Part shown: one piece after another, positions 29,238 through 46,400 of the stretch | Position numbering within the stretch: the first letter of the stretch is position 1 | Layout of the letters: each line of letters opens with the position of its first letter | From: Buttiauxella agrestis | GTDB lineage: Bacteria > Pseudomonadota > Gammaproteobacteria > Enterobacterales > Enterobacteriaceae | Direction: 5' to 3' | NCBI RefSeq assembly: GCF_900446255.1 | Contig: NZ_UIGI01000001.1 | Span: forward strand, 1,204,763-1,268,762 | Length of the DNA: 64,000 nucleotides | Notes under the pieces: model-generated | What the model was told of the DNA's origin: nothing | The model's database searches: none | Seen by the model: the letters and a program-made list of their open reading frames with translations, nothing else | Translations under genes and position numbers: made by a program

Positions 29238-29285
29238 TTTAACGTCTGGCAATAGCCTGCACGTAAAAGCAGTAAAACACCTCTA

Positions 29286-29310
29286 AGCCCGCGTAACTGC
29301 GGGCTTTTTT
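29286..29310 (+). terminator. element-borne terminator behind guaA
   Basis: AGCCCGC at 29286-29292 pairs with GCGGGCT at 29299-29305, loop GTAACT, followed by a T run. It lies inside the element, so it replaces the native guaA terminator displaced to 47601 and shields the integrase gene from guaBA transcription. Confidence 0.8.
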
Positions 29311-29321
29311 GTTTTTGTGTT

Positions 29322-29523: not shown

Positions 29524-29544
29524 GATAAAGGAAAACAATAAACC

Positions 29545-30735
29545 ATGTTGACTGACACCAGGCTGCGTCACCTTAAGCCGAAGGAGAAACTCTATAAAGT
29601 TAATGATCGTGATGGTTTGTATGTTGCGGTCACTCCGGCTGGAACGATCTCATTTCGTTATAACTATTCAATAAATGGAAGACAGGAGACCGTTACTTTT
29701 GGCCGCTATGGTGTTGGAGGGATCACGCTTGCAGAAGCGCGTGAACGGCTCAATGAAGCCAAAAAAATGGTTGCCGGTGGAAGATCGCCTGCGAGGGAAA
29801 AAGCCAGAGATAAAGCGCGTATCAAAGATGCGGAGACCTTTGGTGCGTGGGCTGAGAAATGGTTACGCGGTTATCAAATGGCTGAATCGACGCGTGATAT
29901 GCGGCGTTCGGTATATCAAAGGGAGTTGAAGTCAAAATTTGCCCAGCAGAAACTGAGTGAGATTACACATGAAGACTTACGCGCATTAACCGACAACATT
30001 GTCGAGAGAGGGGCACCGGCGACAGCTGTACACGCCAGAGAGATTGTATTGCAAGTCTATCGCTGGGCTATTGAGCGCGGTCAGAAGGTGGAGAATCCAG
30101 CTGATCTGGTACGTCCTGCAAGCATTGCAAAATTTGAAGCTCGTGATAGGGCACTGACGCCAGGTGAGATCGGGCTGATGTACCGTTATATGGAATGCGT
30201 AGGCACGACGCCATCAATCAGAGCAGCGGTTAAACTATTACTGTTAACGATGGTACGTAAAAGTGAGCTTACTAACGCGACCTGGAACGAGATCAATTTT
30301 AGTGAAGCAGTATGGACGATACCAAAGGAGAGGATGAAACGACGTAATCCACATTTGGTTTTTCTTCCCCGACAGGCAATGGATATTTTGATTGCTCTCA
30401 AAACCTTTGCCGGTAGCTCTGATTTTATCCTTCCTTCGCGCTACGATTCCGATGCGCCAATGAGTAGCGCTACTTTAAACCGGGTTTTGACACTGACGTA
30501 TCGTCTGGCACAGAAAGAAGGGCAGTCATTGCCCAAGTTTGGCCCCCATGATTTACGGCGTACAGCTAGCACCTTACTACACGAGGCCGGGTACAATACT
30601 GACTGGATTGAGAAGTGCCTTGCGCATGAACAGAAAGGGGTACGGGCTGTTTACAACAAGGCAGAGTACCGCGAGCAGAGATCAGAAATGCTGCAAGATT
30701 GGGCGAATATGATTGATGAATGGATCAGTAAGTAG
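29545..30735 (+). CDS. int: tyrosine-recombinase integrase (P4-like, guaA-specific)
   Basis: 396 residues. The N-terminal DUF4102 arm-binding domain (about 1-90, with LYKVNDRDGLYVAVTPAG) is followed by a core-binding SAM-like domain (about 95-185) and the catalytic domain with Arg238, His335-xx-Arg338, His361 and Tyr370 all present. It is preceded by AAAGGAAAA at a good distance from the ATG. The gene reads away from the attL core, 308 bases from the guaA stop. It should integrate and excise the element between the two 16 bp cores. Confidence 0.94.
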   Translation: MLTDTRLRHLKPKEKLYKVNDRDGLYVAVTPAGTISFRYNYSINGRQETVTFGRYGVGGITLAEARERLNEAKKMVAGGRSPAREKARDKARIKDAETFGAWAEKWLRGYQMAESTRDMRRSVYQRELKSKFAQQKLSEITHEDLRALTDNIVERGAPATAVHAREIVLQVYRWAIERGQKVENPADLVRPASIAKFEARDRALTPGEIGLMYRYMECVGTTPSIRAAVKLLLLTMVRKSELTNATWNEINFSEAVWTIPKERMKRRNPHLVFLPRQAMDILIALKTFAGSSDFILPSRYDSDAPMSSATLNRVLTLTYRLAQKEGQSLPKFGPHDLRRTASTLLHEAGYNTDWIEKCLAHEQKGVRAVYNKAEYREQRSEMLQDWANMIDEWISK

Positions 30736-30788
30736 TTTATAATCAGTAGGTTAAGTGTTTATGCTTCCTGTTTCTACACTAGAAGGAC

Positions 30789-30807
30789 AATTTTAGCCGC
30801 TAAAATT
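30789..30807. repeat. palindrome TTTTAGCCGCTAAAA, copy 1
   Basis: A perfect inverted repeat with 9 bp arms and one central base lies between int and the next gene. The same 15 bp core occurs at 34829-34843 and 35375-35389. It may be an operator or partition-type site of the element. Confidence 0.6.
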
Positions 30808-30862
30808 TATGGGATATGTACCGAGTTATGATCTGAAATTACATAAAAAAGGAAAAGCAAGA

Positions 30863-31492
30863 ATGCCTGAGTTGTCTGTGATTATACAGTGGATGGATCA
30901 ATATCCTAAGATCGGTTGGCTGTTGCTGCTTGTTTATATTGTACTTGGTGTGGTTCGTCACCGAGTTATTAATGCTGAATCCGGCAGCGTCTTTCGTGGA
31001 CTACTGAATTTCAGGAAACGCCGGCTAGAGCAAATGCTTACGCAGCCCTATCTGAATGAAAAGGATGTCAGGCTGGCAAAACTTGAGCTTCGCCAACGCA
31101 GCCTTTATAGGCTTACAGGCGTGTATAACTATCGTCTGCAGGATTTGAGCGTAATAATGTGCGACCGCTATGGGCTGAGGGCTGGTTATCTCAAGCCGTG
31201 GCGTAACTGGCTCAAAGAACAGGATGGACAGATAATTTTCAACAGGAAATGGCATTGTTTTCGCTGGCGTCTTTTTCTGGCGGGGCAGATTGCAAATGCA
31301 GCCCTACTGGCAGCATTTATTGTGTTTATAGTTTCTCATGCTTCAGCCGAAATGATCGCACCACTTATGATGCTTTTCATGCTTGTATGGTGGTTTCCGT
31401 GGCTAATGGTGACATCAGTACCCACGCCTGCGTGGACTCGCGAAATGGATGCATATCTGGAAAAATTTAATGGTGAACAGACCAGGGTATAA
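30863..31492 (+). CDS. unknown membrane protein
   Basis: 209 residues from the ATG at 30863, chosen because AAAAGGAAAAG precedes it; the frame is open to 30809. One hydrophobic helix lies near the N-terminus (IGWLLLLVYIVLGVV) and two more in the second half (NAALLAAFIVFIV and MIAPLMMLFMLVWWFPWLMV). Between them is a basic, Arg-rich soluble stretch of about 100 residues. I do not recognise a family. It lies between the integrase and the regulatory/replication genes. The final codons contain CCAGGGTATAA, which is repeated just downstream. Confidence 0.65.
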   Translation: MPELSVIIQWMDQYPKIGWLLLLVYIVLGVVRHRVINAESGSVFRGLLNFRKRRLEQMLTQPYLNEKDVRLAKLELRQRSLYRLTGVYNYRLQDLSVIMCDRYGLRAGYLKPWRNWLKEQDGQIIFNRKWHCFRWRLFLAGQIANAALLAAFIVFIVSHASAEMIAPLMMLFMLVWWFPWLMVTSVPTPAWTREMDAYLEKFNGEQTRV

Positions 31493-31528
31493 GAGTATCT
31501 ATTATTGATATGCATTTATGTTTAATTG

Positions 31529-31577
31529 CCAGGGTATAAAGGCCACATATGAGCGATTTTGGGAGCATATACCCTGG
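31529..31577. repeat. inverted repeat between convergent genes
   Basis: CCAGGGTATA at 31529-31538 and TATACCCTGG at 31568-31577 are perfect inverses. A further direct copy, CCAGGGTATAA, ends the upstream gene at 31482-31492. It could be a bidirectional stop signal or a binding site. Confidence 0.45.
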
Positions 31578-31652
31578 ATAACTTAAAAGTTAATTCTCAG
31601 GGTAATAACATGTGTTTTTGTTAGATTTTTTCAGTTAACTTATGCAACCTGG

Positions 31653-32636
31653 CTAAATATGATTATTAATATGAAATTCTTTTCTTACAGATGCTAATGC
31701 TTTAGACACAGCCTGACGTGTCATAGAGAAGTGATAATTTCCCGTTAAAATCTGTGCAACCTCAGATTGATTAAACCCCTGATTTATTAATATAAGTATT
31801 CTTTTCTTAGTGTCAGAAAATTTAGAATCAGCCATGCGTTGTGCAATATTTCTCAGTTCACCTATATCTGCTGGCGTCAAAGTTTGAGCCAGAATCCAAT
31901 GAAAAAAATAGGCGTCAATTAATCTATCCCCTGAGTTTGCATTGGCTTTATTTGGTTTAGCGCATTGCCGTCTCAATCTTATTAGTTCTTTATTAAACTG
32001 TTCGGAAGAACGCTTTCCTTGTCTGTACTTGGGATTCCATTGGCCATCGGTCAGTTTGGGCTTATGGTTCGAGCAATATCGATGGCTAAGGACCAATTTT
32101 TCATGATCGGAATACTCTATATCGTTAGCAGCATATTCTGATATTTCACTAATAAATTGAGAGTATTCAGTCTGGTTACCGCAAAACTCGCAAAAACCGA
32201 GTTTACGCTGTGAATTTATAGTTACCCCTTTTGCAGGTGAGGATTTCTTCGGCCGCTTGGATGCACACTCACTAACTAACTCAATAAGGGATTCAATCGT
32301 AGCAATAAGGCATTTATCAAGAGAAGTTTGACGATCTAACGTCAGGATAAAATTACGCAAAAGAAGTTTTTGTGCCTGCGCTACGACATTAAAACCCACT
32401 TTTTTGATTAGTTCACTAAATCCTATATCTGCGCCAGAAATGTAGTCCTTATGACTTAGTGGCAGGGAATTTATATAAGCCGCTACTGCAGGGTAAATCA
32501 CTTCCTGTACCAGACGCAGTATTGGATACCTCCGTGAAGCTATGGAATACGGAGAGCCACGTTCTATAAATATTTTGATTGCTGTTGTGATTGTAGGGTC
32601 ACAGCCTTCCCAGATAGTAATTTTCATGTCAACCAT
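31653..32636 (-). CDS. unknown zinc-finger and HTH protein of the element
   Basis: About 328 residues. A central FCEFCG followed by HRYCSNHKP (C-x2-C ... C-x3-H) looks like a zinc-binding site. The C-terminal segment GFNQSEVAQILTGNYHFSMTRQAVSKALASVRKEF looks like a helix-turn-helix of the Trp-repressor/sigma-like kind. No known family is recognised. The start is uncertain: ATG at 32636 or 32627, with no strong ribosome-binding site, and the frame is open to 32729. It is divergent from the AlpA gene and may control it or the replication genes. Confidence 0.65.
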   Translation of the reverse strand: MVDMKITIWEGCDPTITTAIKIFIERGSPYSIASRRYPILRLVQEVIYPAVAAYINSLPLSHKDYISGADIGFSELIKKVGFNVVAQAQKLLLRNFILTLDRQTSLDKCLIATIESLIELVSECASKRPKKSSPAKGVTINSQRKLGFCEFCGNQTEYSQFISEISEYAANDIEYSDHEKLVLSHRYCSNHKPKLTDGQWNPKYRQGKRSSEQFNKELIRLRRQCAKPNKANANSGDRLIDAYFFHWILAQTLTPADIGELRNIAQRMADSKFSDTKKRILILINQGFNQSEVAQILTGNYHFSMTRQAVSKALASVRKEFHINNHI

Positions 32637-32713
32637 TTTAGCCAATGAATAGGTTTTAGCAAGTGGTAATGCTTGGCATTGTATAGGCCTGATTGGAAAC
32701 TGGAGGAAGGCAA

Positions 32714-32944
32714 ATGCAAACAAAGGCAAATAGCACGCTTATTAATAGAAAAACACTTCTGAAAATGATCCCATTGTCAGCCCGGACTATTTATAACCTT
32801 GAGCAACGAGGCGAATTTCCTCGCCGTATAGCGCTAACCAGCCGAAATGTTGCATGGCAACTATCTGAAGTTGAACAGTGGATTGCGGATCGTAAATCAG
32901 CAATGTTTAAAGCGGCTAGACCCGGTATTGTTTTAGGTAGGTAA
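32714..32944 (+). CDS. alpA: AlpA-family excision/transcription regulator
   Basis: 76 residues. It has the AlpA/Xis-like winged-HTH pattern: LINRKTLLKMIPLSARTIYNLEQRGEFPRRIAL, then WQLSEVEQWIADR. These proteins activate integrase genes or assist excision in P4-like elements. The ATG at 32714 is supported by GGAGGAAGG. It is followed after 5 bases by repA, so the regulator and replication genes probably form one operon. Confidence 0.85.
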   Translation: MQTKANSTLINRKTLLKMIPLSARTIYNLEQRGEFPRRIALTSRNVAWQLSEVEQWIADRKSAMFKAARPGIVLGR

Positions 32945-32949
32945 CGGTA

Positions 32950-33807
32950 ATGTCATTGAACATAATGGAAGCGTTTGAAGCTAAGCCACAACCAATTGAT
33001 TACGTTTTGCCAAATCTTGCTGCTGGTACTGTCGGAGCGATTGTCTCTCCGGGAGGTGTTGGAAAGTCAATGCTGGCATTACAACTTGCCGTGCAGATTA
33101 CTTGTAGCGTAGACCTTTTAAACTTTGGTGAATATCCAGCCGGGTTAGTGGCCTATCTGCCAGTGGAGGACTCGGCGACTATCATTCACCATCGTTTATA
33201 TGCTTTGGGAAAATATCTAACAGCACGTCAGCAGCAGATTGTAGCTGATAAGTTACTAGTTGAACCTTTGGTAGGAAAGTGTCCAAATATTTTAACAGCA
33301 AGTTGGAGCAACTTGATTAATGAGATTTCAAAAGGCAGAAGGTTAATAATTTTGGATACTCTTCGCCGTTTCCACCAGGAAGATGAGAATAATAGCGGAG
33401 CAATGTCCAAAGTCATTGGAAAGCTAGAAGGTATTGCTGCTGATACTGGTTGTTCGATTATATTTCTACACCATTCAAACAAAGGCGCTGCCACGATGGG
33501 AGTTGGTGATATTCAACAGGCAAGCAGGGGTAGTAGTGTCCTGGTTGATAATATACGGTGGCAATCTTATCTAGCTGGCATGACGGCCTCGGAAGCGAAG
33601 ACCTACGGTATTGCTGATGGCATTCGAGGTCAATTTGTTAGATTTGGAATTAATAAAGCAAATTATGGTGAACGTGCCCCAGATCGTTGGTTACAGAGAC
33701 ATGAGGGGGGAGTATTAAGAATAACGGCGCTCAGCTCGAAGAATAATAAAAAACTTACTAAAGAAAGAACATCGGCCTGGAGTGGTGCTGACAATGACAA
33801 CTGGTAA
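32950..33807 (+). CDS. repA: RepA-like replicative helicase (IncQ type)
   Basis: 285 residues. It is a RecA-fold ATPase with Walker A SPGGVGKSM (about 33-41), Walker B RRLIILDTL and the motif SIIFLHHSNKG. This is the arrangement of the hexameric RepA helicase of RSF1010/IncQ plasmids and related AAA proteins of integrative elements. It would unwind the origin for copying of the excised circle. It overlaps repC by 14 bases. No RepB primase is visible, so priming must come from the host or a helper. Confidence 0.85.
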   Translation: MSLNIMEAFEAKPQPIDYVLPNLAAGTVGAIVSPGGVGKSMLALQLAVQITCSVDLLNFGEYPAGLVAYLPVEDSATIIHHRLYALGKYLTARQQQIVADKLLVEPLVGKCPNILTASWSNLINEISKGRRLIILDTLRRFHQEDENNSGAMSKVIGKLEGIAADTGCSIIFLHHSNKGAATMGVGDIQQASRGSSVLVDNIRWQSYLAGMTASEAKTYGIADGIRGQFVRFGINKANYGERAPDRWLQRHEGGVLRITALSSKNNKKLTKERTSAWSGADNDNW

Positions 33808-34576
33808 TAAAGTGGCACCCACAAGTACAGCATGGCAAGCCCGAGTAATTCTGTACCAGCCAAGCCAGCGTCCTAAGGAGCTAAAGGGGCAATGGATGGA
33901 GACAAGTTTCGGACGTTGTCGTGTTACCGGACGGCTCGGACAGCGTCATGCCGATATCGTGGAGACAATACTATATGTTGCCGAGAGACGTCGTGAAATT
34001 TCTGATGGTGGAATCGAATTATTAGTAGATCCAGCGAAATTACGTCGAACGCTATCCGATGCACAATATAGTTATGGTCGTATACAGAAATTGCTTTTAG
34101 ATCTTCGCAGCGCAACAGTTGAAATCATAACGCCAGAACTGGAGAAAAGCGGCGACTATATAATAGGGGGACTAATCGATCATGTAGTGCCATCACCTAT
34201 GACTCGTCCAGATCCTTTGACTGGGGGAGAACGCCGTTTATGGCGTGTCCGTCTGGGTGTTGCATTAGCGATGTTACTCCAAAAAGATTTGTCATTTTAT
34301 TATCATCCTGGCCCCATAGCTCGGCTACAACATGGTATTAGCCAAGCAGTCGCTCGTCATGTCTTGACCCATAGGAATAATCCTTTAGGGGGGTGGTTTA
34401 TGGATACGTTGATATTAGCAGTGTGCGGTGAAGGAACGAGTAATATGACTTTACGTAATTACCGTCGGAGATTGAAAGAAGATGCCGGGCAATTGCTTGA
34501 GATTGGAATTGATTTGAACGGTTCTAAGATAAAGCGTGTCACAACGGCCCGATATTATGTCACAACGGCCCGATAG
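33794..34576 (+). CDS. repC: RepC-like replication initiator
   Basis: 260 residues from the ATG at 33794; two in-frame GTGs at 33782 and 33785 are alternatives. The central part (QARVILYQPSQRPKELKG, LGQRHADIVETILYVAERRR, YSYGRIQKLLLDLR) agrees with initiators of the IncQ RepC type, which bind iterons through winged helices. The C-terminus is repetitive (VTTARYYVTTAR) because the first two iterons run through the end of the gene. With repA it would allow replication of the excised element. Confidence 0.8.
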   Translation: MTTGNKVAPTSTAWQARVILYQPSQRPKELKGQWMETSFGRCRVTGRLGQRHADIVETILYVAERRREISDGGIELLVDPAKLRRTLSDAQYSYGRIQKLLLDLRSATVEIITPELEKSGDYIIGGLIDHVVPSPMTRPDPLTGGERRLWRVRLGVALAMLLQKDLSFYYHPGPIARLQHGISQAVARHVLTHRNNPLGGWFMDTLILAVCGEGTSNMTLRNYRRRLKEDAGQLLEIGIDLNGSKIKRVTTARYYVTTAR

Positions 34577-34616
34577 TGTGTTATAGCGGCCCGGTAGCGT
34601 GCTACAGCGGCCCGAT
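34534..34616 (+). repeat. four tandem 21 bp iterons, candidate oriV
   Basis: The core CGGCCCGAT (third copy CGGCCCGGT) occurs at 34545, 34566, 34587 and 34608, exactly 21 bases apart. It sits in a wider unit like GTCACAACGGCCCGATA. Two units are inside the 3' end of repC and two beyond it. Tandem 20-22 bp repeats beside an IncQ-like initiator gene are the expected binding sites in its origin. Confidence 0.85.
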
Positions 34617-34823
34617 TTTTTTACTATTCAGCAGTATTTACAGGATCGTTCAGGATCTACAGGCTTTAAAATCACCTGCCTGAGCAGGCGCTTTCAAATC
34701 TAGAATCGGCCAAAGGCCGATGGTTGTACGCCAGAAGAAGAGATTGCGTACACACTCGATATATCGACACTTGAGGCAGATTTTATGACATATGAGGTAC
34801 GCCCCTAGCTTTATGCATAGGGG

Positions 34824-34848
34824 GCAGATTTTAGCCGCTAAAATCTGC
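34824..34848. repeat. palindrome TTTTAGCCGCTAAAA, copy 2
   Basis: This is the longest copy: 12 bp arms, GCAGATTTTAGC and its inverse, around one central C. It lies in the non-coding region between repC and trbJ. Confidence 0.65.
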
Positions 34849-35064
34849 AGAGCACATGCTGAGACATAGTAATTAAACTAGCTCATAAAAAATTAAAAGA
34901 CTTCTTACAATATATCGAAACATGAATAAAATTGGCGGACGCCAATATATAACTACTAAAGGTCATTTTCAAACAGGAGAAATATAGTTTCCTTGCAAAA
35001 AACACATTTGCTGCAGATTTTTATTCGAGTAATCCTGCATTAATACTTTAAGAAAACACATCCT

Positions 35065-35100
35065 GTACACAGGTATACACAATACGTACACAGGTATACA
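35065..35100 (+). repeat. paired 15 bp direct repeats upstream of trbJ
   Basis: GTACACAGGTATACA occurs at 35065-35079 and 35086-35100, again 21 bases apart. Each copy is itself roughly dyadic. A pair of sites two helical turns apart upstream of the trb genes suggests a regulator operator. Confidence 0.6.
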
Positions 35101-35334
35101 ACGGCAACAGTGGGGCAGGACATGTAAAGTAGGCCCACCGCAGGCGGTATTCCAACTTTACTATTACCTATTCGCCGCACAGCTGCTCAAGGGAAGCCTG
35201 CTCTGCGAGGCTAATCGGCTACCGCCGATATGGAGAGCCATATGACTGTTGCTCAGACGCAGCTTTCCATACGCCAGCGACTGTTAACAGTGAGAGTGTT
35301 CAATATAAATAACCAGTTAATATTGAGGTGCAAT

Positions 35335-36129
35335 ATGAAGCTATTGGTTCAGATGTTTACATCATTGAGAGGGATTTTAGCCGCTAAAAAAACGGTGCCC
35401 ATTTTCATTTCCGTATCGTTTATCGCTCTGGCGGCTAAAGCCGGGATTCCTGTTATTGATGGTACTAACGTGGTTCAAACGACAATCAGCGCAGTCAATA
35501 ATGTTCAGGCCGTTGCAAAACAAATCCAGCAGTATCAGACTCAACTCCAGCAGTATGAAAACATGCTGCAAAATACTGCCGCACCTGCAGCATATATCTG
35601 GGATCAGGCCAATTCCACTATCAACAAATTACTACAGGCTCAAGACACGCTTAACTATTACAAGAACCAGGCCGGGAGTCTGGACTCATATCTAAAACGT
35701 TATCAGGACATTAACTACTATAAATCTTCTCCTTGTTTTAATAGCAATATTGAGTGTACTTCAGCCGAGATCGACGCACTTCGTAGTGCTGAGCGGAATA
35801 ATTCAGAAGCGCGTAAAAAAGCGAATGATGCCGTTTTCAAAGTAATAGACCAGCAGCAGCAAACCTTGCAGCAAGATGCTGATAATGTCGCAGAACTCCA
35901 GTCTCAGGCGAGCGGGGCAACAGGTCAGATGAAGGCAATTCAGGCCGGAAACCAACTTGCCAGTGCTCAGGCCAACCAACTGCTGCAGATACGCTCACTT
36001 CTGGTAGCCCAACAGAATGCCGCAATGACACTGGCTCAAGTACAGGCAGATAAAGAAGCTCAACAGACAGTAGCTGATGAGAAAGTATTAGCTGGGGATA
36101 ATAAACCAAGCCCTAAGCGAGTTTGGTGA
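35335..36129 (+). CDS. trbJ: TrbJ, P-type conjugal transfer protein
   Basis: 264 residues from the ATG at 35335, chosen for the GAGGTG site upstream and the signal peptide that then starts the protein; the frame is open to 35230. The signal peptide ends near ALAAKA. Mature features are GIPVIDGTNVVQTT, the Gln-rich helix QIQQYQTQLQQYENML and APAAYIWDQANSTINKLL, all typical of TrbJ, the VirB5-like minor pilus component that contacts recipients. The palindrome copy 3 lies in its first codons. trbK and trbL follow. Confidence 0.88.
   Translation: MKLLVQMFTSLRGILAAKKTVPIFISVSFIALAAKAGIPVIDGTNVVQTTISAVNNVQAVAKQIQQYQTQLQQYENMLQNTAAPAAYIWDQANSTINKLLQAQDTLNYYKNQAGSLDSYLKRYQDINYYKSSPCFNSNIECTSAEIDALRSAERNNSEARKKANDAVFKVIDQQQQTLQQDADNVAELQSQASGATGQMKAIQAGNQLASAQANQLLQIRSLLVAQQNAAMTLAQVQADKEAQQTVADEKVLAGDNKPSPKRVW
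35375..35389. repeat. palindrome TTTTAGCCGCTAAAA, copy 3
   Basis: The same 15 bp core as at 30791 and 34829, here inside the signal-peptide codons of trbJ, 40 bases after the start. Confidence 0.6.
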
Positions 36130-36138
36130 GGAGGCAGA

Positions 36139-36312
36139 ATGAATAATAAATTCTTGATGTCATTTGTTGTAATCATTTCGTTGATTCTATGTTCTTGTGA
36201 AAGAAAAAATAAGGAGTGTTTATTTCCGCCTGGAAGTACTACTGATGGACATAAATACGATAACTGTGCTCTTCGTAGCAATAATACCCCAAGTCATAAG
36301 AGAGATTGGTAA
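36139..36312 (+). CDS. trbK: TrbK-like entry-exclusion lipoprotein
   Basis: 57 residues beginning MNNKFLMSFVVIISLILCSC. The hydrophobic stretch ends in a lipobox-like LCSC, so a lipoprotein is predicted. The rest is small and polar. A strong GAGGAGG lies 5 bases before the ATG. Size, lipoprotein signal and position between trbJ and trbL equal those of trbK in IncP-type transfer operons, where TrbK blocks entry of a second copy of the same plasmid. Sequence similarity beyond this layout cannot be judged by eye. Confidence 0.75.
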   Translation: MNNKFLMSFVVIISLILCSCERKNKECLFPPGSTTDGHKYDNCALRSNNTPSHKRDW

Positions 36313-36314
36313 TT

Positions 36315-37661
36315 ATGAAAGTTGCAAGCAAACTTACATTTTTAGGTGTGGTTTTTTTCTTTTCTATGAATACCTACGCAGGACAACTGGATAGCAGTGG
36401 CTTACTTGATACTTTATTAGATAAGTATCAGCAAGTTGCCAGTACATGGACGACAGTAATTGGTAATTATGCAAATTGGCTATTTTGGGGGCTGGTATTA
36501 ATAAGTATGGTATGGACGTTTGGTATAATCGCTATGAAAGGGGGCGGCTTACAAGATTTACTTGCTGAAATAGTAAGGTTTTTCACTGTGAATGGTTTTT
36601 TCTATTATCTTTTAAGCAATGGTCCCGCGATATCTAAATCTATAATTGATTCTATGAGAGAGCTTGCCGCAAATGCTTTAGGAACCAGTGCTGGCATTTC
36701 ACCTTCAAGTATAGTTGATATGGCCTTTGTGATATTAACGAAAATAAGTTCTGCCGCATCGATCTGGTCACCAATGATCTCCACTATTATGATCACTGTC
36801 GCGATAATCGTTTTGGTTGTAATGTCCCTTATCGCGATAAATATGCTAATAATGTTGGTTTCTGCGTGGGTGCTATGTTACGCAGGAGTTATATTGCTTG
36901 GTTTTGGTGGATCGAAATGGACTTCTGATATAACAATTAATTATTTGCGCACTGTTTTATCAATTGGTATTCAGCTGTTCACAATGACATTAATTATTGG
37001 CATTGGACAGTCATTTATAGATCAATATTTTTCTATTATTAAAGATGATGTTCCTGATCTTAATAGCCTTATTGTTTTGCTTCTGGCGTCAATTATCCTA
37101 TTAGTATTAACGAATAAGTTGCCACTGTTGTTATCAGGTGTTGTAGGAGGGGCGTCTTTACAAGGGATTGGTGGGTTTGGGGCGGGTATGATTACCGGCG
37201 CTGCAGCCACTGCCATCAGCGGTGCTGGAGCAATGGCAATGGGGGCATCAGCTCAAGTCAGCGGCGGAGCCTCTGCATTAAAGGCAGCGTTCGAATCTGC
37301 ACAAGCTGCAATGGCCGAAGAGTCGGGCTCCGGTGGCGTAATTGGTGGTTGTGAAGATACAGCTTCTGTAGACACGTCGGGAGAGCAGCCATACGGTAAA
37401 GGTAGCTCCAGTGGGGGAAGCGAAGGTTTTGCTGCTTCCTTCTCGCGTGCTGGCCGCATGGCAAGTCATATGGGAAGCAGTATGGCTAGCGGGGCTGCTG
37501 AGTACCAGTCAATGAAGCGAAGTGGCAACTCTTCTCGTGTCCAACAGACTATTGGAGGGGAGTTGGCGACTCAGATACGTAAGCAAACAGCTACTCGTCG
37601 GGATAACCGCACACATGATGATTTTGCCGGAGATAGCTTATCCGGCAATAATAAATCTTGA
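36315..37661 (+). CDS. trbL: TrbL, VirB6-like inner-membrane transfer protein
   Basis: 448 residues. A signal sequence (ending near NTYA) is followed by several membrane helices (about 45-280), including the LLLASIILLVLTNKLPLLLSGVVGG segment characteristic of TrbL/VirB6. The C-terminus (about 290-448) is low-complexity, rich in Gly, Ala and Ser, and soluble. TrbL forms part of the inner-membrane channel of P-type conjugation systems. It starts 2 bases after the trbK stop; the TTG at 36306 is a less likely start. None of the other trb genes follows. Confidence 0.9.
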   Translation: MKVASKLTFLGVVFFFSMNTYAGQLDSSGLLDTLLDKYQQVASTWTTVIGNYANWLFWGLVLISMVWTFGIIAMKGGGLQDLLAEIVRFFTVNGFFYYLLSNGPAISKSIIDSMRELAANALGTSAGISPSSIVDMAFVILTKISSAASIWSPMISTIMITVAIIVLVVMSLIAINMLIMLVSAWVLCYAGVILLGFGGSKWTSDITINYLRTVLSIGIQLFTMTLIIGIGQSFIDQYFSIIKDDVPDLNSLIVLLLASIILLVLTNKLPLLLSGVVGGASLQGIGGFGAGMITGAAATAISGAGAMAMGASAQVSGGASALKAAFESAQAAMAEESGSGGVIGGCEDTASVDTSGEQPYGKGSSSGGSEGFAASFSRAGRMASHMGSSMASGAAEYQSMKRSGNSSRVQQTIGGELATQIRKQTATRRDNRTHDDFAGDSLSGNNKS

Positions 37662-37743
37662 ATCACGCGCGTCAGTTAACGAGATAGCATGAACTGACGC
37701 TTTCACTGAGCGAACTTTATTCCTGCAACTCAAAGGAAAAACC

Positions 37744-38178
37744 ATGTCCAGGACTCCCTATTCACGGTTACGCATTGAGGGCTTCCGCAAAGCAGAGGTT
37801 TCCCTGAGACTTGAAGAAATGGACCCCAGTGGTACGCCACTCTATGAGTCCATTAAAGCACGTATTATTTCAGGTGAGCTGACGTATGAGCAGGGACGTT
37901 CAGAGATTCTTGCATACTACACAAAAGCAGATACCGCCGGGCCTGCGACAGTGGGGGAAATGCTGGTAGAGGAATTTCTAAAACCGCTGAGCATGTCCCA
38001 TGATGAACTGGCGGAATCTATGGGTATTTGCAAGCAGGATATTGAAGATATTATCTGCGGTTTGCGTCGTCTTACGGATGATGAGGCTCGCGTTCTTGCT
38101 GACATATTTGGGACTGATGAGGACTTCTGGTGCAATCTGCAGGTGCTGCAAGATCGCCCTGAGCAACGGCGTAAGTAA
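37744..38178 (+). CDS. HigA-like XRE antitoxin/regulator without visible toxin
   Basis: 144 residues. The C-terminal half (TVGEMLVEEFLKPLSMSHDELAESMGICKQDIEDIICGLRRLTDDEARVLADIFGTDEDFWCNLQ) follows the HigA-type antidote pattern closely. The N-terminal half, with ISGELTYEQGRSEILAYY, resembles the antitoxin_VbhA-like helical motif. It has an AGGA site before the ATG. No HigB or Fic toxin is encoded next to it: upstream is trbL, downstream the opposite-strand CoiA remnant. It may be an orphan antitoxin or a regulator of the transfer genes. Confidence 0.7.
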   Translation: MSRTPYSRLRIEGFRKAEVSLRLEEMDPSGTPLYESIKARIISGELTYEQGRSEILAYYTKADTAGPATVGEMLVEEFLKPLSMSHDELAESMGICKQDIEDIICGLRRLTDDEARVLADIFGTDEDFWCNLQVLQDRPEQRRK

Positions 38179-38466
38179 TCAACGGGAGCAGGTCAGCCCC
38201 TCAAGTGTCATGAAATTCGACCACTTGGCTTCACTTTTCCACCAAGGGGCGCATAGGGGATGTACCTTAAGTGACCAGTGCCAGACTTTGACCGTCCTGC
38301 ACTTGGCGACCAAGCGGCCACCACAGCTCGGGCAGGTTCCCTTGAGCTTTGGATGAGCCTCTACGCGCTTTTCATTCACAACCGCCAATCTCACGTTTCG
38401 CCCTTCTTTTGATGTGGAGATAATGCCAGTATCGCCCTCGAATCCACTCCCTTTACCGTTGGCCAT
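38179..38466 (-). pseudogene. truncated CoiA-like zinc-finger protein
   Basis: 95 residues. CPSCGGRLVAKCRTVKVWHWSLK and HPLCAPWW resemble the N-terminal zinc-ribbon region of CoiA-like proteins, which are normally over twice this length and continue into a nuclease-like domain. Here the frame ends after KWSNFMTLEGLTCSR, 1 base after the stop of the convergent HigA-like gene. The remainder seems lost at the junction between the trb part and the Gabija-like part, which fits a recombination joint. Confidence 0.55.
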
Positions 38467-38557
38467 ATGCTATGGTACAGCTTAAGCGATAGTTAGTAAT
38501 CGATAATAAGTCTTCCATAATAACAAGGCGTTGCATAATCTGGCGGGGGCAAACCAT

Positions 38558-40870
38558 ATGCATCTTCACTCTCTGGCGTTTAAGAATTTCCGTAGGTTGA
38601 AAGATGCGCGTATCGAGTTTGCGAACGACCTGACCATATTTGTTGGAGCTAACAATAGCGGAAAGACATCAGCAACTCACGCAGTAGACCTGTTCTTGTC
38701 CGGCTCTAAAGACAAGTTCACTGTCAATGATTTCAGCGCAGATTGCTGGCCGGCTTTTGAAAATTTCCCGGCGGAAGATGCGGTTGAGCAAGGCCACGAA
38801 TTGCCGGCAATAACTCTTGATGTGTGGATAAGCGTTGATCCGGATAATCTCTACCGGGTCGTGGATCTCCTGCCCAGAGCCGCATGGGAAGGTGCACTCG
38901 TCGGTGTCCGGATTGAGTTTACCGTGAAGGACGCGACCCAAACGCTGGCCAGCTACCGTAAGATGGCGACCGAGGCTGCGAAGTTCGCCCAGAATAAGGC
39001 GGAGCATGGCGCAGATTACAAACCTTGGCCTCGCAACATGCGCGACTACCTCGCGCGCGAGCTGAAGAATGAATACGGCCTGCGCTATTTCATTCTCGAC
39101 GAAGCGTCGCTATCCCCCGCTAACGCTGGCGAGACGTACACGCCGAAAGAGATCCTGGGAGACACCGAGCGAACGGGACACTCAATCATCAATTCGCTGA
39201 TTAAGGTGGACTTCCTGAGCGCTCAACGACACTTGAGCGACGGTAACTCACAAGCTCGAACCGAGGACTTGTCCAAGCGACTCAGCCGTTTCTACACTCG
39301 CAACCAGAGCAAGCGCGAAGACGACCACAACGCCCTGCGCGCGTTGGCGCTCTCTGAAGAACAACTGACGAAGCATTTTTCGGACGTGTTCAAGGACACG
39401 TTCAAATCGCTGCGCAAGCTCGGTTATCCCGGCCTTTCCAACCCTGCACTGGAGATTCGCGCAGCCCTACGGCTGGAGCGACTGATGGGCGATCAACAGG
39501 CCAAAGTTCACTACCTACTCGAAGAAGCGACCGGTGGCGTAGAAGCCCTGTCTCTCCCCGACAGCTACAACGGGTTGGGTTTTAAAAACCTCATCTACAT
39601 GGGCGTCGAACTCCTCGACCTCCACGCTGCGTGGTCGGTCACAGAGGAAGGCGAGGAAGGAAAACGCCAGCCAATCCACCTGATGTTTATCGAGGAGCCG
39701 GAGGCGCACATGCACGCGCAACTCCAGCAGGCCTTCGTTCGCAAGCTCACCGAACTCATCCCGTCCGAAGGGGCGGACGGTTACGGCACGCAGTTCGTGA
39801 TCACGACGCATTCCCCGCACATCCTGTACGAGCGGGGCTTCAAACCGATCCGCTATTTCCGCCGTTCGGCCGAAATCGGTTCCAAGCAATGCTCTTCTGT
39901 TTTCAACCTCTCAGCCTTCTACGAGAGCAACAAAGACGACCGGGATTTCCTCCAGCGATATATGAAGCTGATGCATTGCGACCTCTTCTTCGCTGACGGC
40001 GCAATCCTTGTTGAGGGTAACGTCGAGCGCCTCGTACTTCCGTTAATGATTGGTCACGGTGCTAAGAAGCTGAACGCGGCTTATCTCAGTATTCTTGAGG
40101 TCGGTGGTGCTTTCGCCTTTCGTTTCCAGAAGCTGATTGAGTTTCTCGGCTTGCCGACCCTGATCGTGACTGATCTCGACAGCGTGTACCCGCCCAAACC
40201 TAAGAAGACTGCTGACGCCGCTGCCCAAGACGATAATGACGCTGGCGATGACGAGGACGATGATCTCGACGATGAGGCCGCGGCTGAAGGGGATGAGCCG
40301 AAGCCAAGCTCAAAATGCCCTGCAGGAACGGCTGGAGCTGTTACGGCAAACCAGACCCTTCGCCAGTGGCTCCCCGGCAAGATACTGATTGAAGACCTTC
40401 TGGCCGCAACGCCTGAAAGTAAGCTGCAAGCGCCGCAAAATGGCTTGGGTGCACATGTGATGGTGACGTATCAGTGCCCTGTAACCGTGAAGTGGGGAGA
40501 GGAGACTGCTGAGCTGAAGAGCCGAACCCTCGAAGAGGCCTTCGCCTATCAAAACCTTGAGTGGTGCCAGAAGAAGGAGCACCACGATCTGAAGCTGAGA
40601 TGGAGCAAGGCGGGAACGATGCCGCTGGCCGACCTTGCTTCGAAAATCCATACTCGCGTCAAAGGCCAGCATTTCAAGAAAACCAACTTCGCCTTGGGCC
40701 TGTTGGCTAGCAGCGACGCGACGTGGGTCGTCCCTACTTACATCCAGCAGGGCTTAGACTGGCTGACGCAGCACGTCACAATTGTAGAAGAGGTGTTGGA
40801 TGGCACGGCTGAAGTCGTCGGTGTCGATGAAGCTCCTGTCCAACCTCAAAATGTTCTGGTGGAACAATGA
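38558..40870 (+). CDS. gajA: GajA-like OLD-family ATPase/TOPRIM nuclease (Gabija)
   Basis: 770 residues from the ATG at 38558; the frame is open to 38531. The N-terminal SMC-like ATPase has Walker A GANNSGKT (30-37), and Walker B FIEEPEAHMHAQ near 378 is followed by TTHSPHILY. The TOPRIM domain has the glutamate in LVEGNVERLVLP (near 485) and TDLDS (near 537). This is the architecture of GajA, the nuclease of the Gabija anti-phage system. It overlaps the helicase gene in ATGA. It is larger than the best-studied GajA and has an Asp/Glu-rich insertion just after TDLDS (about 553-580). The coding sequence is more G+C rich than the trb genes. Confidence 0.85.
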   Translation: MHLHSLAFKNFRRLKDARIEFANDLTIFVGANNSGKTSATHAVDLFLSGSKDKFTVNDFSADCWPAFENFPAEDAVEQGHELPAITLDVWISVDPDNLYRVVDLLPRAAWEGALVGVRIEFTVKDATQTLASYRKMATEAAKFAQNKAEHGADYKPWPRNMRDYLARELKNEYGLRYFILDEASLSPANAGETYTPKEILGDTERTGHSIINSLIKVDFLSAQRHLSDGNSQARTEDLSKRLSRFYTRNQSKREDDHNALRALALSEEQLTKHFSDVFKDTFKSLRKLGYPGLSNPALEIRAALRLERLMGDQQAKVHYLLEEATGGVEALSLPDSYNGLGFKNLIYMGVELLDLHAAWSVTEEGEEGKRQPIHLMFIEEPEAHMHAQLQQAFVRKLTELIPSEGADGYGTQFVITTHSPHILYERGFKPIRYFRRSAEIGSKQCSSVFNLSAFYESNKDDRDFLQRYMKLMHCDLFFADGAILVEGNVERLVLPLMIGHGAKKLNAAYLSILEVGGAFAFRFQKLIEFLGLPTLIVTDLDSVYPPKPKKTADAAAQDDNDAGDDEDDDLDDEAAAEGDEPKPSSKCPAGTAGAVTANQTLRQWLPGKILIEDLLAATPESKLQAPQNGLGAHVMVTYQCPVTVKWGEETAELKSRTLEEAFAYQNLEWCQKKEHHDLKLRWSKAGTMPLADLASKIHTRVKGQHFKKTNFALGLLASSDATWVVPTYIQQGLDWLTQHVTIVEEVLDGTAEVVGVDEAPVQPQNVLVEQ

Positions 40871-42756
40871 CCAGCCGTGCTGGAAAGCCGGATACGCCGG
40901 CTGATATCGAACTGAGAACCTTGCTAGATGATGATGCGTCTACCGGGTTCGTGATGGTTTCAGGTGCAGGGTCGGGAAAAACGACCTCGATCGTCAAAGC
41001 GCTCGATCATCTTCTCAAAACACGAGGCCCCGCTCTACGAGCTCAGTCCAAAAAGATTGCCTGCATTACTTACACAGAAGTCGCGGTCGGCGAGATTTGG
41101 GGTGATGTCGGCAACAACCAGTTGTTCCACGTGTCCACAATCCACAGCTTCCTCTGGGCGGCCGTGAAGCCGTTTCAGAGCGACATCGCAGACTGGGTCG
41201 GACGTCGGCTCGACAAGAAAATCACCGACACTGAAACTGAGATTGAAGGCTTCACGAACAGGACGCGGGCATCGACGCGAGAACGTAAACACGCCGACCT
41301 AGCGCGGTATCAAGCCCAAAAGCTCACGATCGGTGATGTGAAGCGCTTCACCTACGGTGTCGGAAGCGACTACCCGAAGGGTATTCTGGGGCATGGCGAC
41401 GTTATCAAGCTTTCGACCGAGCTGATCCGGGATCTGCCGGTTATCGCCAAGGTTGTTGGGCAGAAGTATCCCTTCATCTTTGTCGATGAGAGTCAGGACA
41501 CCGATCCGGAAGTTGTTGCGGCATTAAAGGCGATCTCAGCTTTGCTCGGTAATAAGTTTTGCCTCGGATTTATTGGCGATCCGATGCAAAAAATTTACAT
41601 GTCCGGGGCCGGCGTCATAGCCCCTCTAGACGGTTGGAAACTTATTGAGAAGCCTGAAAATTTTCGCTGCCCCGTCGCAGTCCTCGATGTGATCAATCAA
41701 ATCCGCGCGGGCGCTGACGGTCTTGCTCAGACCGGAGGCAAAACGAAAGAGGTCGGAGGCGCACGCGTTCCGGTCCAAGGTTCCGCGAAGCTGCTCGTGG
41801 TGTCCAAGGCCGACCGTACCCAGAGCCTTGCCGAGGCGCGACAGTGGCTAGCCCATCACAACAACGACCCCCTTTGGCTTAGCGATGAAGCTGACGCTGA
41901 CGTAAAGGTCTTGGTGATTGCCCATCGAATGGCAGCCAACCGCCTTGGCTTCGGCTCCCTTTACGAGGCCTTCCACGACAAAACGTCTGACGGTTTCAAA
42001 GACGGGTTCGATGATGGCACACATTGGTCTGTCGCCCCTTTGTTGAAGCTGCTGGCCCCCTTGATGCTGGCCAATGTCGATGACGATCAATTCAAGGTTA
42101 TGAGCCTTCTGCGTCGCCATGCGCCTTTTTTGCAGCGCGAGTACATGCAGGCGAACGCCGTGCCCGGCATCTTGAAGGATATGGACACTCGAGTGAAGGC
42201 GCTCGCGCTGATCTGCGGAGAGTCTTCAGCAACTCCTGCATTCGCTGCGTTCGAACACCTGCGAGATGGAGGCATGTTTAAGCTGGATGAACGCATCCTA
42301 GCGGCAATGGCCGAATACGATGCTGCGGCTCCATCGGCTGAAAGCGGCAACCATGCCGCTTTGGTGAAGCTCCTTCACACGCCGATCCGGCAACTATGGG
42401 GCTATCGTCGCTATATCGAGGAGCAGTCGCCGTTTGAGACACATCAGGGGGTAAAGGGTGCGGAGTTCAACCGGGTCCTCGCGATCCTCGATGACGAAGA
42501 AGGTCGCCATAACCAGTTCCATTACGGGAAGTATTTCGGCATAACGCCTCTCTCCGACACGGACGAGCAGAACATCCGGGATGGCAACGAAACGACAATT
42601 ATGCGCACCCGTCGACTTCTGTATGTCTGCTGTTCTAGAGCTGGCGAGGATTTGGGAGTCGTGTTTTTTGCGGATGATCCTGCGCAGGCTCATGCCGCCA
42701 TCGTCGCGTCGGGTCTCTTCTCCACTCAGGACGTGATCAATCTTGCCGCGTCCTAG
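40867..42756 (+). CDS. gajB: GajB-like UvrD/Rep-family helicase (Gabija)
   Basis: 629 residues. Superfamily 1 helicase motifs: Walker A SGAGSGKTT (32-40), ITYTEVAVGEI (motif Ia), FVDESQDTDP (motif II, near 205), GDPMQKIY (motif III), HQGVKGAEF (motif V region) and TRRLLYVCCSRA (motif VI, near 581). In Gabija, GajB senses DNA ends or nucleotide depletion and activates the GajA nuclease. It is translationally coupled to the OLD gene. Length exceeds the usual GajB. No other defence gene is fused or adjacent on this strand. Confidence 0.85.
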   Translation: MTSRAGKPDTPADIELRTLLDDDASTGFVMVSGAGSGKTTSIVKALDHLLKTRGPALRAQSKKIACITYTEVAVGEIWGDVGNNQLFHVSTIHSFLWAAVKPFQSDIADWVGRRLDKKITDTETEIEGFTNRTRASTRERKHADLARYQAQKLTIGDVKRFTYGVGSDYPKGILGHGDVIKLSTELIRDLPVIAKVVGQKYPFIFVDESQDTDPEVVAALKAISALLGNKFCLGFIGDPMQKIYMSGAGVIAPLDGWKLIEKPENFRCPVAVLDVINQIRAGADGLAQTGGKTKEVGGARVPVQGSAKLLVVSKADRTQSLAEARQWLAHHNNDPLWLSDEADADVKVLVIAHRMAANRLGFGSLYEAFHDKTSDGFKDGFDDGTHWSVAPLLKLLAPLMLANVDDDQFKVMSLLRRHAPFLQREYMQANAVPGILKDMDTRVKALALICGESSATPAFAAFEHLRDGGMFKLDERILAAMAEYDAAAPSAESGNHAALVKLLHTPIRQLWGYRRYIEEQSPFETHQGVKGAEFNRVLAILDDEEGRHNQFHYGKYFGITPLSDTDEQNIRDGNETTIMRTRRLLYVCCSRAGEDLGVVFFADDPAQAHAAIVASGLFSTQDVINLAAS

Positions 42757-43431
42757 TCTGTTACAGGCCTACCGTCCTATCAGAAGGGCTATCGACGTGT
42801 GGTGCCTAGGAGATCGTTCCGCGTCCTCATTCGGTGAGATGTCGAATATCCGCTACTGGTCTGATGTGACGTTCGACAAATCGCGAGGGTAAGGTTGAAA
42901 TGTCCCAGACCCAGTCATGCTTCCAACGCCCGATTGTAGTCGTGGCTAATTTGTTCTTGTTTCACGATAGGGAGCGCCGACGGGTCCTTAGCTCGAGGTA
43001 TGGTACTAATCATGGTGTTGGTAACTAATTTGTTTATAACTTACTGATAAGTAAGGTGATAATACTCTATCAACAATCGGGTGGAAATGGGTTTGCTTGT
43101 AAGTTATTGATCTTATTACAATAATATGTAATTGATAACAACCTATCCCATATCATCAACGGTATTTTCATGGCATCCGAAAGGCATGCCATGAAAAAGT
43201 CGCCGATACTATGGCTAGCTACATGACGCTGGCATGGTATCGGGAAAGCGTATCAGCCACTCCTGGTGAGGCATGGGCGGCTTGAGTATTCGTGGCATCA
43301 AGATCGCAACCCTTCTCGGGCATCATGAGTGACTGCATTTATCTCTCCGACGACAATGCCTTTCAACAAAGGTAAAGATGCAAAGAACAGAAAGGCAATT
43401 AGATTCTCGAATCATGTTGGAATGTCGAGGA
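42757..43431. other. spacer between the two defence modules
   Basis: 675 bases between convergent genes, with no gene I can support. It changes from G+C-rich to A+T-rich near 43000. From 42999 it resembles the right end of the element (TATGGTACTAATCATGGT against CATGGTATTTTTTATGGT at 47461), followed 75 bases later by an att-like core. At 43165-43176 TTTTCATGGCAT pairs perfectly with 43186-43197 over a 9-base loop; no T run follows it on either strand. Confidence 0.6.
43074..43088 (+). other. degenerate internal att-like core
   Basis: CAATCGGGTGGAAAT matches CTATCGAGTGGGAAT of the attachment core at 12 of 15 positions. It lies at the same distance (about 75 bases) from a TATGGTA motif as the true attR core lies from CATGGTA. 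It may be the old right end of a smaller element. Confidence 0.5.
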
Positions 43432-46400
43432 TCACCTTGCGTCCCATCGTCGCTTCAGAGAAATTAGCCTATTGTCGCTATTTAGCGAGCTGTTCGCTTC
43501 CTCTATTTGTTTCAATATCTCTTCTGTCCCATATGGCCATGCCAGCGCGTTGTCTGGTAGAACGGCATGAAGTAAAGCCAGTGCCTGTTCCGGGTACCGG
43601 TCTACTATGTCGCCTCCTGATCGACGAAGTTCAGGCAGCATCAAATGGTCACGCTCGATTCTGCCCAAGAACGGCAAAACCAATGCAGCTATGGTAGGAA
43701 ATTCATCGCCACTGGAGAAAGCCAATTCGCAAAGGCGAGCCGACGTGTTGGGTGTTCTGGCTGAAAGTTGGCGCGGCCAAATCTGCAGCAGTTCGGGGAG
43801 CTGTCCTTTCCATAGTTCGTGTGAGTTTTCGTTTATCTCGTCAGACCATCGTTGAGCCTGCCATAGTACTCGTGTTCGAAACTCGTCATCGACTGCCAAT
43901 AGTAAGCTGCGCATCTCGTCATTGGAGATACAACGCTCGCCGGTGATGTCGTCGACAGTTCTCCACCCGACAAGGATCATACCTGCGATGATTTCACCAT
44001 ATGAGCGTCGCGATGGGAGAGGGTTAACGGCGAACTGCAGCATATCATTCTTCAACCGCATATAGAGCTCTCGATTTGGAGTTCTCGCCCTCCACAAGAA
44101 GCCTGACCATGCTGCGTCGCGATCGTCCCTGTTGTTACCCTGAAGCGCAGGCAATAAGTAATGCTCTGTCCATTTCTGGTCGACAGCGAAAAACCAGGTG
44201 AGGTTGTGGAAAAAGATCACAATCGCATGTCTGCGCAAGTCACCTGGAAGCGCCAATAGAGCCTCAGCGCGAACAAGCCATTCGGAAGTAATATCTTGAT
44301 TTTTATTCAGATTATCCGTGCGGGGATCGTTAAAAAGCACCTGCGCGATCTTACCTGTAGGAGAATTAATCGCTTCCATAGCCCAGTCTGGTTCCTTGGA
44401 ACCTCGAATAATACCCGAACGACCTTCGTTCGGCGATTCACGGAGGACGCCAACCAGCTTACTCAAAATACGGTCGAAAATAGGAAAGTAGTCTTTGCTT
44501 AGCTTCGTACTGGCATTTTGCAGCCAATCGGTCGCGGGGCGGAGAATCGTTGCAAGCTGCGCATTTGGATAACGAGATAGTCGTTCGGCAATCAACCAAG
44601 CTAATCTCGACTTGTCATTCTTCCGTGCCTCTGAGGTAAGGAACTGTTGCCATGCCCAATTTGGAAAATTCCCTCGTTTGGCAGCATAGGTCAACGCAGC
44701 AAAAGCGCGCGCAGGGCGCTGAGCGGCCAGGCCGGAAAAAGGATCGTTCTCGATGAGAAAATCGTCTGATCGACCACTACGTTCCTTCGCTCGCAGCAGT
44801 ACTAGTGAAAGGGGGATTTCTGCTAGTTCCTCATGGCTGGTGTTAGTCCTGACCCATCCAGTCCGACCTTCCAACGATTCAGCAGCCCTCCCGCCATAGT
44901 CCTCTTTCCAATCGGGCACAGCAGCACGGAGCAGTTTCGCTTGTTTACGGGTATTGGCTGAAAGCTTGCATTCTGAGTTTTGAAGCCACTGAATGCGATT
45001 TAGAATCGAGCAAGCTCGTCTGCTATCGAAGGCTGCAATCTTCTCGCGCTGCCATCGCTTTGGGCCTATCAACAGCTTTTGTTCGATTAACTTACGCGAT
45101 GCTCCACTGAGTTTCTTCCATCGCTCTGAGATGACCAGTAATAGGTCTCGTTGATGGTAACTATCCCAGAATGCGGTATTGCTTAAAGACGATATGAATA
45201 GTCCAAATTCATTATCTGAAACAACACTTTTTTTACCTGATGCCCATATTCGTAGCCGAGCAAAAATGGTGTCATCTTCCGTAGGCCATGATAAAAATTC
45301 TCGTTTAGCGGCTGATTTATTAGTTTGAACTAGTTGTGTGAACAGCTCCGCAAATTGGATAACTAATGCTGAAAGCCCATGCGTTCGATGATAGTCGTCG
45401 ACATCTTCAATATTATCCTTGACTAATGGGCTTATATTTCTAAGGCTGTAGCCACCAATTTCTTGTTCAAGTGCAAGAGCCAGTTCGAGATTCTGTCGTA
45501 GGGCTTTAACAATTGCTGAACACCATTCATCAGGAACAGCGATTGTTTCGTGCGTTTCAGGATATTTCACGTCCATCCACAGCAAGTGATCTTCATCTGT
45601 CTGAGCAGTCTCTGCTTCGGGCGGCTTCGGTGTATTCCTGGAAGAAGGCCTTGCAGAAAGGTGAGGCCGGAGCACCTCTCCAAACCGCCTAACTATTGCG
45701 CTACTCCATCCCTCAACCTTAATGACATCTTGCAGGTTATACCACTCTTGATAAAAGTCTTCGACGTGGCTCCAGGTTTCAAAAAGCAAACGCCAAGAGT
45801 TGCGAATGTTCTGACGTATTGGGTGATTGCTTCGCTCTAGCTCCCAAGAGATGAGCCGTTGAATGTTCTGATTAAGTGACGACTGATGGGATGCCCACCA
45901 TACAGCGGCAGGCTGGTCGCAAACCTTTGCGAGCCATACGCCCAATTTATCTATGCGCGGAACAATACGTGGGAAATGATTAGCCCAATGTCCGCGAAAC
46001 GCAGTAAGATTTTCATCGCGGATCGCTGCTTTATCAAGATGATTAATTTCGAAGGCATCCCACGCATTGGATGGTGTTTCTCGCTTGGCATAATTATCTT
46101 CAGGATCTGGTTTAGTCGGCAGGGGGTCTGAATCAAGGCCATATAGATCGAATGGATCAATATAGGGTTCTTTGCTACTAAGTGAGATTGAATTAACCGG
46201 CCTTGCGAATCGTCGGTATTTGTCGAACACACAAAGCCATTCAGCAGGGGGGAGAACCTCCCCCTCGCAGAACCTCTTTACGCCTTCGTAGGTTGAAATA
46301 ACATGTGTCACCTGACCCCGTTCATGAGGCTGAAGCGCTGTCGGTCCTTTTTTGGATGTCTCAATAACCTTTGTGAACCAGTCATCAGGATTACGGGCTC

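Follow-up and report, generated by a model that had tools for sequence, protein, structure and literature searches.

A guaA-integrated island with trbJ-trbK-trbL, an IncP-type oriT and predicted KorB operators as a candidate satellite of IncP plasmids

The guaA island and its trbJ-trbK-trbL genes

The DNA analyzed here is a 64-kb window of the Buttiauxella agrestis genome (NZ_UIGI01000001.1), a piece of enterobacterial chromosome with guaB-guaA at its left end and ppx at its right. It harbors an integrative element of approximately 18.3 kb (29226-47541) that occupies the guaA 3' end, with GAGTGGGA att cores on both sides. The element is flanked by the 16-bp direct repeat ACTATCGAGTGGGAAT (29220-29235 and 47536-47551), of which GAGTGGGA is the core. 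The same GAGTGGGA is the integration site reported for the island GIsul2 (PMC9376610). The element carries trbJ, a trbK-like gene and trbL, preceded by an origin of transfer (oriT) of IncP type, and contains three predicted binding sites of the IncP regulator KorB.

On the forward strand, trbJ (VirB5-type, 35335-36129) matched the NCBIfam TrbJ equivalog with an E value of 1.6e-112, and trbL (VirB6-type, TTG start, 36306-37661) matched TIGR02783 (E 1.1e-80) and the Pfam TrbL family (E 6.7e-30). The open reading frame (ORF) between them (36139-36312, forward strand) encodes a TrbK-like lipoprotein of 57 amino acids, which matched no Pfam or NCBIfam model above the cut-off, the curated TrbK family included. 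Its TrbK-like traits are its position, a lipoprotein-type cysteine (lipobox judged by eye) and a C-terminal PSxK(R/K)xW-like ending common to it and the TrbK proteins of RP4 and R751, to which it is just 22-23% identical. All three frames are open, and the genes had been correctly named in a preliminary description of the stretch 35335-37661. Among the 34 annotated proteins of the backbone of the IncP plasmid pDS1, whose annotation carries no trbK entry, only TrbJ and TrbL matched the element at E<=0.01. No match at this threshold was obtained with TraI (the MobP-type relaxase), TraG, TrbE, TrbB, TraJ, TraK or KorB of pDS1, and the Pfam scan of the element ORFs (those scanned) revealed neither a relaxase nor a coupling protein. 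The earlier statement that a relaxase and other trb genes are missing therefore holds for the window copy, but not for all related islands, as both traJ and the relaxase gene traI are present in L063-L067, which have a guaA-type integrase or come from other families.

The ratio of nonsynonymous to synonymous substitution (dN/dS), calculated pairwise as summed dN over summed dS, was 0.066 for trbJ (10 copies), 0.095 for trbL (10 copies) and 0.301 for trbK (12 copies). Excluding pairs whose dS was undefined or very small left 43 of 45, 45 of 45 and 60 of 66 pairs, respectively, and the dS of trbJ was close to saturation. By this measure purifying selection acts on trbJ and trbL, and trbK evolves faster, which argues that the three genes are not relics. 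The trbJKL stretch was matched in 266 of 5426 E. coli genomes, and in 203 of these at least 80% of the stretch is covered at a single place (reading frames unchecked); the matches fall at 275 places, 35 of them on plasmids. Decay in most relatives, which the preliminary description had considered fatal to its proposal, was not observed, since trbL is open in 14 of the 20 copies read and not open in six. In four of the six broken copies (L037, L079, L080 and L081), the length of a T-run at approximately trbL codons 91-98 differs, suggesting that this site is a mutation hotspot or that the channel gene is phase-variable; in the window, trbL is open.

The IncP-type oriT and the KorB operators

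Just upstream of trbJ, an IncP-type oriT (35094-35234, reverse strand) was recognized by alignment to those of RP4 and pDS1, with a predicted nic site between 35116 and 35115. The local alignment scores were 136 with RP4 and 147 with pDS1, compared to 31 and 37 for the best of 200 shuffles, and blastn found 83.2% identity over 142 bp with the IncP plasmid MF990207. Both the imperfect inverted repeat and a nick-like sequence fall within the aligned stretch. The assignment rests on this long alignment, because a scan for the bare nick-site motif ATCCTGC was uninformative (12 seen, about 8 expected). Similar oriT-like DNA was found in 210 of the 5426 E. coli genomes, at 194 chromosomal and 21 plasmid places. 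An IncP-type oriT is likewise present upstream of trbJ in the GIsul2 copy of pAB3 (L050; 10465-10584, score 155 to RP4); the accessible parts of Guedon 2017 and Zhang 2022 make no mention of it.

Between oriT and trbJ, a 5' remnant of traJ was detected (35242-35266, forward strand; alignment A1), the remainder being missing relative to E. coli relatives. An open IncP traJ occupies this place in eight E. coli loci (L001, L002, L052, L077, L078, L080, L081 and L082); in L003 and L079 the gene is interrupted by a stop, and it is absent from the window, L029 and L048. With traJ gone, its leftover start codon stands in frame with trbJ, giving a longer open frame (35230-36129). L048 shows the same arrangement, and L029 has an intervening stop.

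KorB of IncP plasmids binds the 13-bp sequence TTTAGC(c/g)GCTAAA (PMC2680271). Three exact copies were predicted in the element: OB-1 (30792-30804), after the integrase gene and just before orf227; OB-2 (34830-34842), at the center of a 25-bp palindrome (34824-34848); and OB-3 (35376-35388), within the 5' end of trbJ. None was found in the remaining 46 kb of the window, and a 42-kb part of RP4, used as a positive control, contained eight. In a family survey of 392 genomes, the 371 without a TrbL match contained 100 exact operators, so that about 0.002 would be expected per 18.3 kb; finding three then has a probability of about 1e-9 or less if genomes average 2.5-4 Mb (sizes of 2.5, 3.2 and 4.0 Mb were assumed). 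Three or more operators were present in five of the 371 genomes without a TrbL match (G291, with three on a filamentous-prophage-like contig and one elsewhere; G129, G142, G155 and G181, with three each) versus eight of the 21 with a match, the latter including IncP plasmids. A filamentous-prophage-like contig of 9.3 kb (L047), from a genome without a TrbL match, bears exact KorB-operator sequences at 892, 1871 and 8278.

Exact operators outside trbJ, one or more per element, occur in 16 of 19 tabulated elements. This count leaves out three loci cut by contig ends (L030, L038 and L044) and two without an operator, L034 (16 kb, with trbK and a trbL containing a stop) and L036 (15.8 kb, with a truncated trbL); L004-L028 and L053-L062, which are short duplicates or belong to other systems, stand outside the counts. 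OB-1 forms a conserved footprint in otherwise diverged DNA (alignment A3, nine elements). The operator in trbJ is found in RP4, R751 and other IncP plasmids compared as well, is T-centered in pDS1 and is retained in L040 only as a one-mismatch form. The idea that the islands had acquired it specially was consequently dropped, and only OB-1 and OB-2 are island-specific. The notion that one operator of the relatives precedes orf358 was also discarded, as this site actually lies beyond the orf358 3' end. No exact KorA operator was present in the window, and two-mismatch matches did not exceed chance. In IncP plasmids, KorB is the ParB protein (PMC5577506, PMC10954446) and serves both expression control and partition (PMC5577506, PMC7314908, PMC11790492); a chromosomal KorB site is cited for P. 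putida KT2440 (PMC7314908). The predicted sites are compatible with either role, between which the sequence does not discriminate. No published report of KorB operators on mobilizable islands was found in a search that most subscription papers lay beyond and that covered Harmer 2017 through citing papers.

The oriT, the traJ remnant and the operators had all been overlooked in the preliminary description. With oriT, operators and trbJKL all of the IncP kind, its suggestion that the element would depend on an IncP-type helper is well supported.

A private TrbK-TrbL type and the proposed satellite behavior

The pore proteins of nine island copies were compared with those of four IncP copies belonging to the nearest type (pDS1, CP075702 and plasmids from genomes G002 and G384). 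Across mature TrbJ (residues 30-250), 3 of 221 columns had no residue shared between the groups, and the nonsynonymous difference was 0.070 between groups versus 0.060 and 0.055 within them. In the TrbL core (residues 26-325), there was no residue in common in 92 of 300 columns, 51 of them fixed, and the corresponding differences were 0.301 versus 0.042 and 0.119. TrbK of three islands shared 21-28% identity with the CP075702 type and 26-38% with the AP025659 type. A similar pattern was seen among IncP plasmids themselves: between L074/L075 (AP025659, CP028855) and L076 (CP075346), TrbI is 100% and TrbJ 94-95% identical, and TrbK is 33-35% and the TrbL core 61% identical. TrbK and the TrbL core thus covary on an otherwise constant pore, as expected of an exclusion pair. 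As a general rule, the donor-side partner of exclusion is usually encoded beside the exclusion gene, and transfer of pKPC_UVA01 needs trbJ and trbL but not trbK (both PMC8923210). TrbK and TrbL look like an exclusion-type pair of which the islands hold their own third type; such a private pairing was not found in print. It may be added that the trbK-trbL pairs of TrbI-identical enterobacterial IncP plasmids differ as if cassette-swapped.

These comparisons bear on the idea that the island remodels the pore of a helper, which had been proposed in the preliminary description. This concept is not new, having been published for GIsul2 (Guedon 2017, section 3.2; PMC5704250). The part of it that concerns evading or imposing exclusion gained indirect support from the purifying selection and the private TrbL core and TrbK. 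The other part, a changed choice of recipient, found no support, as the mature tip protein TrbJ of the islands is hardly distinguishable from that of IncP plasmids. A switch of exclusion type is accordingly the reading favored over an altered recipient range through TrbJ.

The oriT, the operators and the private TrbL/TrbK type are solidly supported by sequence, and the functions proposed for them are inferred. We lean, by a modest degree, toward regarding the element as a relaxase-less integrative mobilizable element that parasitizes IncP plasmids and swaps its TrbJ, TrbK and TrbL into the helper pore. Satellite behavior of this sort, combined with an exclusion-type switch, appears to be the most likely mechanism. 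The island would be excised by its own integrase, and the excised circle may replicate via RepA and its iterons. The helper relaxosome proteins TraI, TraJ and TraK would nick the island oriT, and the island TrbJ, TrbK and TrbL would replace those of the helper in its type IV pore. TrbJ would retain the helper type, and TrbL and TrbK would form an exclusion pair private to the island. Once part of the donor pore, island TrbL would escape the helper TrbK in recipients, thereby opening helper-bearing cells to the island, and island TrbK would mark cells that already bear it. The KorB operators would link the island to its helper through expression set by the helper repressor, through the helper partition protein on the circle, or both.

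A somewhat unlikely alternative is that the operators serve partition alone. Helper KorB and IncC would then segregate the excised island and perhaps destabilize the helper, comparable to SGI1 and the IncC parABS system, and the sites would play no part in trbJKL expression. The ParB nature of KorB agrees with this, as does the position of OB-2 between the iteron-like repeats and oriT, where no recognized gene start lies. OB-1 just before orf227 and OB-3 inside trbJ fit local control equally well.

We consider it unlikely that the module is a residue of reduction, in which relaxase-bearing IncP islands (oriT-traJ-traI-trbJKL) lose their transfer region stepwise, trbJKL decays and mobilization proceeds by oriT alone. 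The graded series from traI plus traJ (L063-L067) through traJ only to neither (window, L029 and L048), the broken trbL copies and the traJ stops in L003 and L079 are what such a course would leave. Against it stand the purifying selection on trbJ and trbL across large synonymous distances, the retention of most of the stretch in 203 of the 266 matching E. coli genomes, and the occurrence of relaxase-less trbJKL in two separate tree clades (window type and GIsul2).

A role confined to the recipient, in which chromosomal TrbJ and TrbK act as a defense set that excludes IncP plasmids or shields the cell from contact killing by IncP pores, is likewise improbable: RP4 TrbJ and TrbK in a recipient do protect against the RP4 pore (PMC11045733), Gabija and Dsr1 reside on the same island, and KorB operators would keep the genes on only where a helper is absent, but this role needs neither the conserved trbL nor an oriT, and the island TrbK, at 21-26% identity, differs in type from that of the compared IncP plasmids, which it would not be expected to exclude were exclusion type-specific.

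Several findings nevertheless weigh against the satellite reading itself. The six trbL copies that are not open are joined by two further loci, L036 and L044, in which trbL is truncated or degraded. Three of the 19 tabulated elements have no exact operator outside trbJ, namely L035 (two T-centered forms), L050 (GIsul2) and L065, and judged from its distribution the trbJ operator is ancestral, inherited from IncP plasmids. Because KorB is chiefly a repressor, the operators alone do not explain activation upon arrival of a helper. Having lost its own traJ, the window island would depend wholly on helper TraJ. The structure models were too poor for judging pore compatibility (mean pLDDT confidence 65 for TrbJ and 45 for TrbL); TrbJ had no PDB match at E<=0.001, and PDB sequence searches with TrbJ and TrbL profiles gave no meaningful match. 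Finally, no published report of conjugative transfer was found for GIsul2 or any relative.

Remaining genes, relatives and known systems

The other genes of the element begin with a tyrosine integrase (29545-30735, forward strand; Pfam Phage_integrase, E 6.3e-23). It is followed by orf227 (30809-31492, forward strand; ORF call), a predicted membrane protein without a family in Pfam, in NCBIfam at its cut-offs or in PHROGs, with relatives at 78-85% identity in L001, L002, L003, L037 and L048. The conserved protein orf358/orf324 (31653-32627, reverse strand; start codon predicted from relatives) had no family in the Pfam scan. A RepA-type replicative helicase (32950-33807, forward strand; Pfam AAA_25, E 5.9e-30) precedes a gene that is RepC by position only (33782-34576, forward strand), and 21-bp direct repeats (34533-34637; repeat family D1) resemble iterons and form a candidate origin of replication, oriV. 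Downstream of trbL lie a HigA-like antitoxin or regulator (37744-38178, forward strand; TIGR02607, E 1.5e-17) and the cargo, comprising a Gabija pair gajA-gajB (38531-42756, forward strand; PADLOC GajA E 3.8e-277, GajB E 3.1e-231) and a Dsr1-type SIR2 defense gene (43432-47277, reverse strand; PADLOC Dsr1, E 5.7e-100).

In both the TrbJ and the TrbL tree, which include some long branches, the window-type islands formed one clade beside enterobacterial IncP plasmids (96/99, 100/100), and GIsul2 grouped with the relaxase-bearing L066 (98/97, 100/100). This split indicates that trbJKL without a relaxase probably arose at least twice. The module oriT-(traJ)-trbJ-trbK-trbL is also borne by islands of a second type, which have a different integrase and are located beside tRNA genes (L052, L068 and L035); in L052 from E. 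coli, tRNA-Thr and a tRNA-Ser feature flank the island (8586-19513). In this type, traJ is present in L052 and L068 and was not found in L035, and KorB operators are present, in L035 as center-T forms only. Taken together, it can be proposed tentatively that chromosomal IncP satellites are widespread and use at least two unrelated integrase types. They would combine an IncP-like oriT, KorB operators that hijack or read the ParB-type regulator of the helper, and a private TrbK-TrbL pair that re-types the pore; TrbL would be the donor-side target of TrbK, with at least three TrbK-TrbL types in one pool of plasmids and islands.

The closest known system is GIsul2, compared here on the basis of Guedon 2017 (section 3.2), Zhang 2022 and, through citing papers, Harmer 2017. 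A 2022 study demonstrated that it excises and integrates (PMC9376610), and for excision it is the only such case in print. Both elements occupy GAGTGGGA at the guaA 3' end, share the integrase (86% identity to that in pAB3) and RepA (62%), and have contiguous trbJ-trbK-trbL with an IncP-type oriT and the trbJ operator, without a relaxase, coupling protein or other pore gene. They differ in TrbJ (53% identity) and TrbL (43%, partial match), in the lack of an exact KorB operator outside trbJ in GIsul2, and in the RepC position, where the window gene is unrelated to GIsul2 RepC (no significant match, E 2.4). GIsul2 carries sul2 and arsenic genes and the window element Gabija and Dsr1; because the sul2 and arsenic cargo is absent, the window element is a sister lineage rather than GIsul2 itself. 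In E. coli defense islands, relaxase-less integrative mobilizable elements were detected by Hochhauser et al. 2023 with the aid of VirB5/VirB6 annotations. Relaxase-bearing IncP islands, such as those of Brucella suis and Burkholderia glumae and IME_E35BA of E. coli ST131, resemble the element in the guaA-type integrase, trbJ, trbL, oriT and KorB operators (as read in the relatives L063-L067), but encode TraI and TraJ, both of which it lacks. The IncP plasmids of Enterobacteriaceae (pDS1, CP075702 and pMCR_1511) share TrbJ (about 80% identity), oriT and the trbJ operator, and differ in their complete tra/trb systems, their TrbK and their TrbL core.

SGI1 is similar in outline, as it has no relaxase of the usual kind, supplies a few pore subunits of its own and leans on helper control proteins. 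Its swapped pore subunit disables helper exclusion (PMC5389848), and it hijacks the IncC parABS system (PMC10954446). It differs in its F-type pore with TraN/TraG/TraH, its trmE site and the activator AcaCD in place of KorB; the present element, at guaA and with TrbJ/TrbL families, has neither that site nor those subunits. If the proposal is true, phage-defense genes such as Gabija travel among enterobacteria on satellites of IncP plasmids, and defined natural TrbK-TrbL types make the target of IncP entry exclusion directly testable. The principle known from SGI1, a parasite that re-types the pore of its helper and uses its control proteins, would then hold for a second class of pore, unrelated to the first, in which the ParB-type protein KorB is the point of control.

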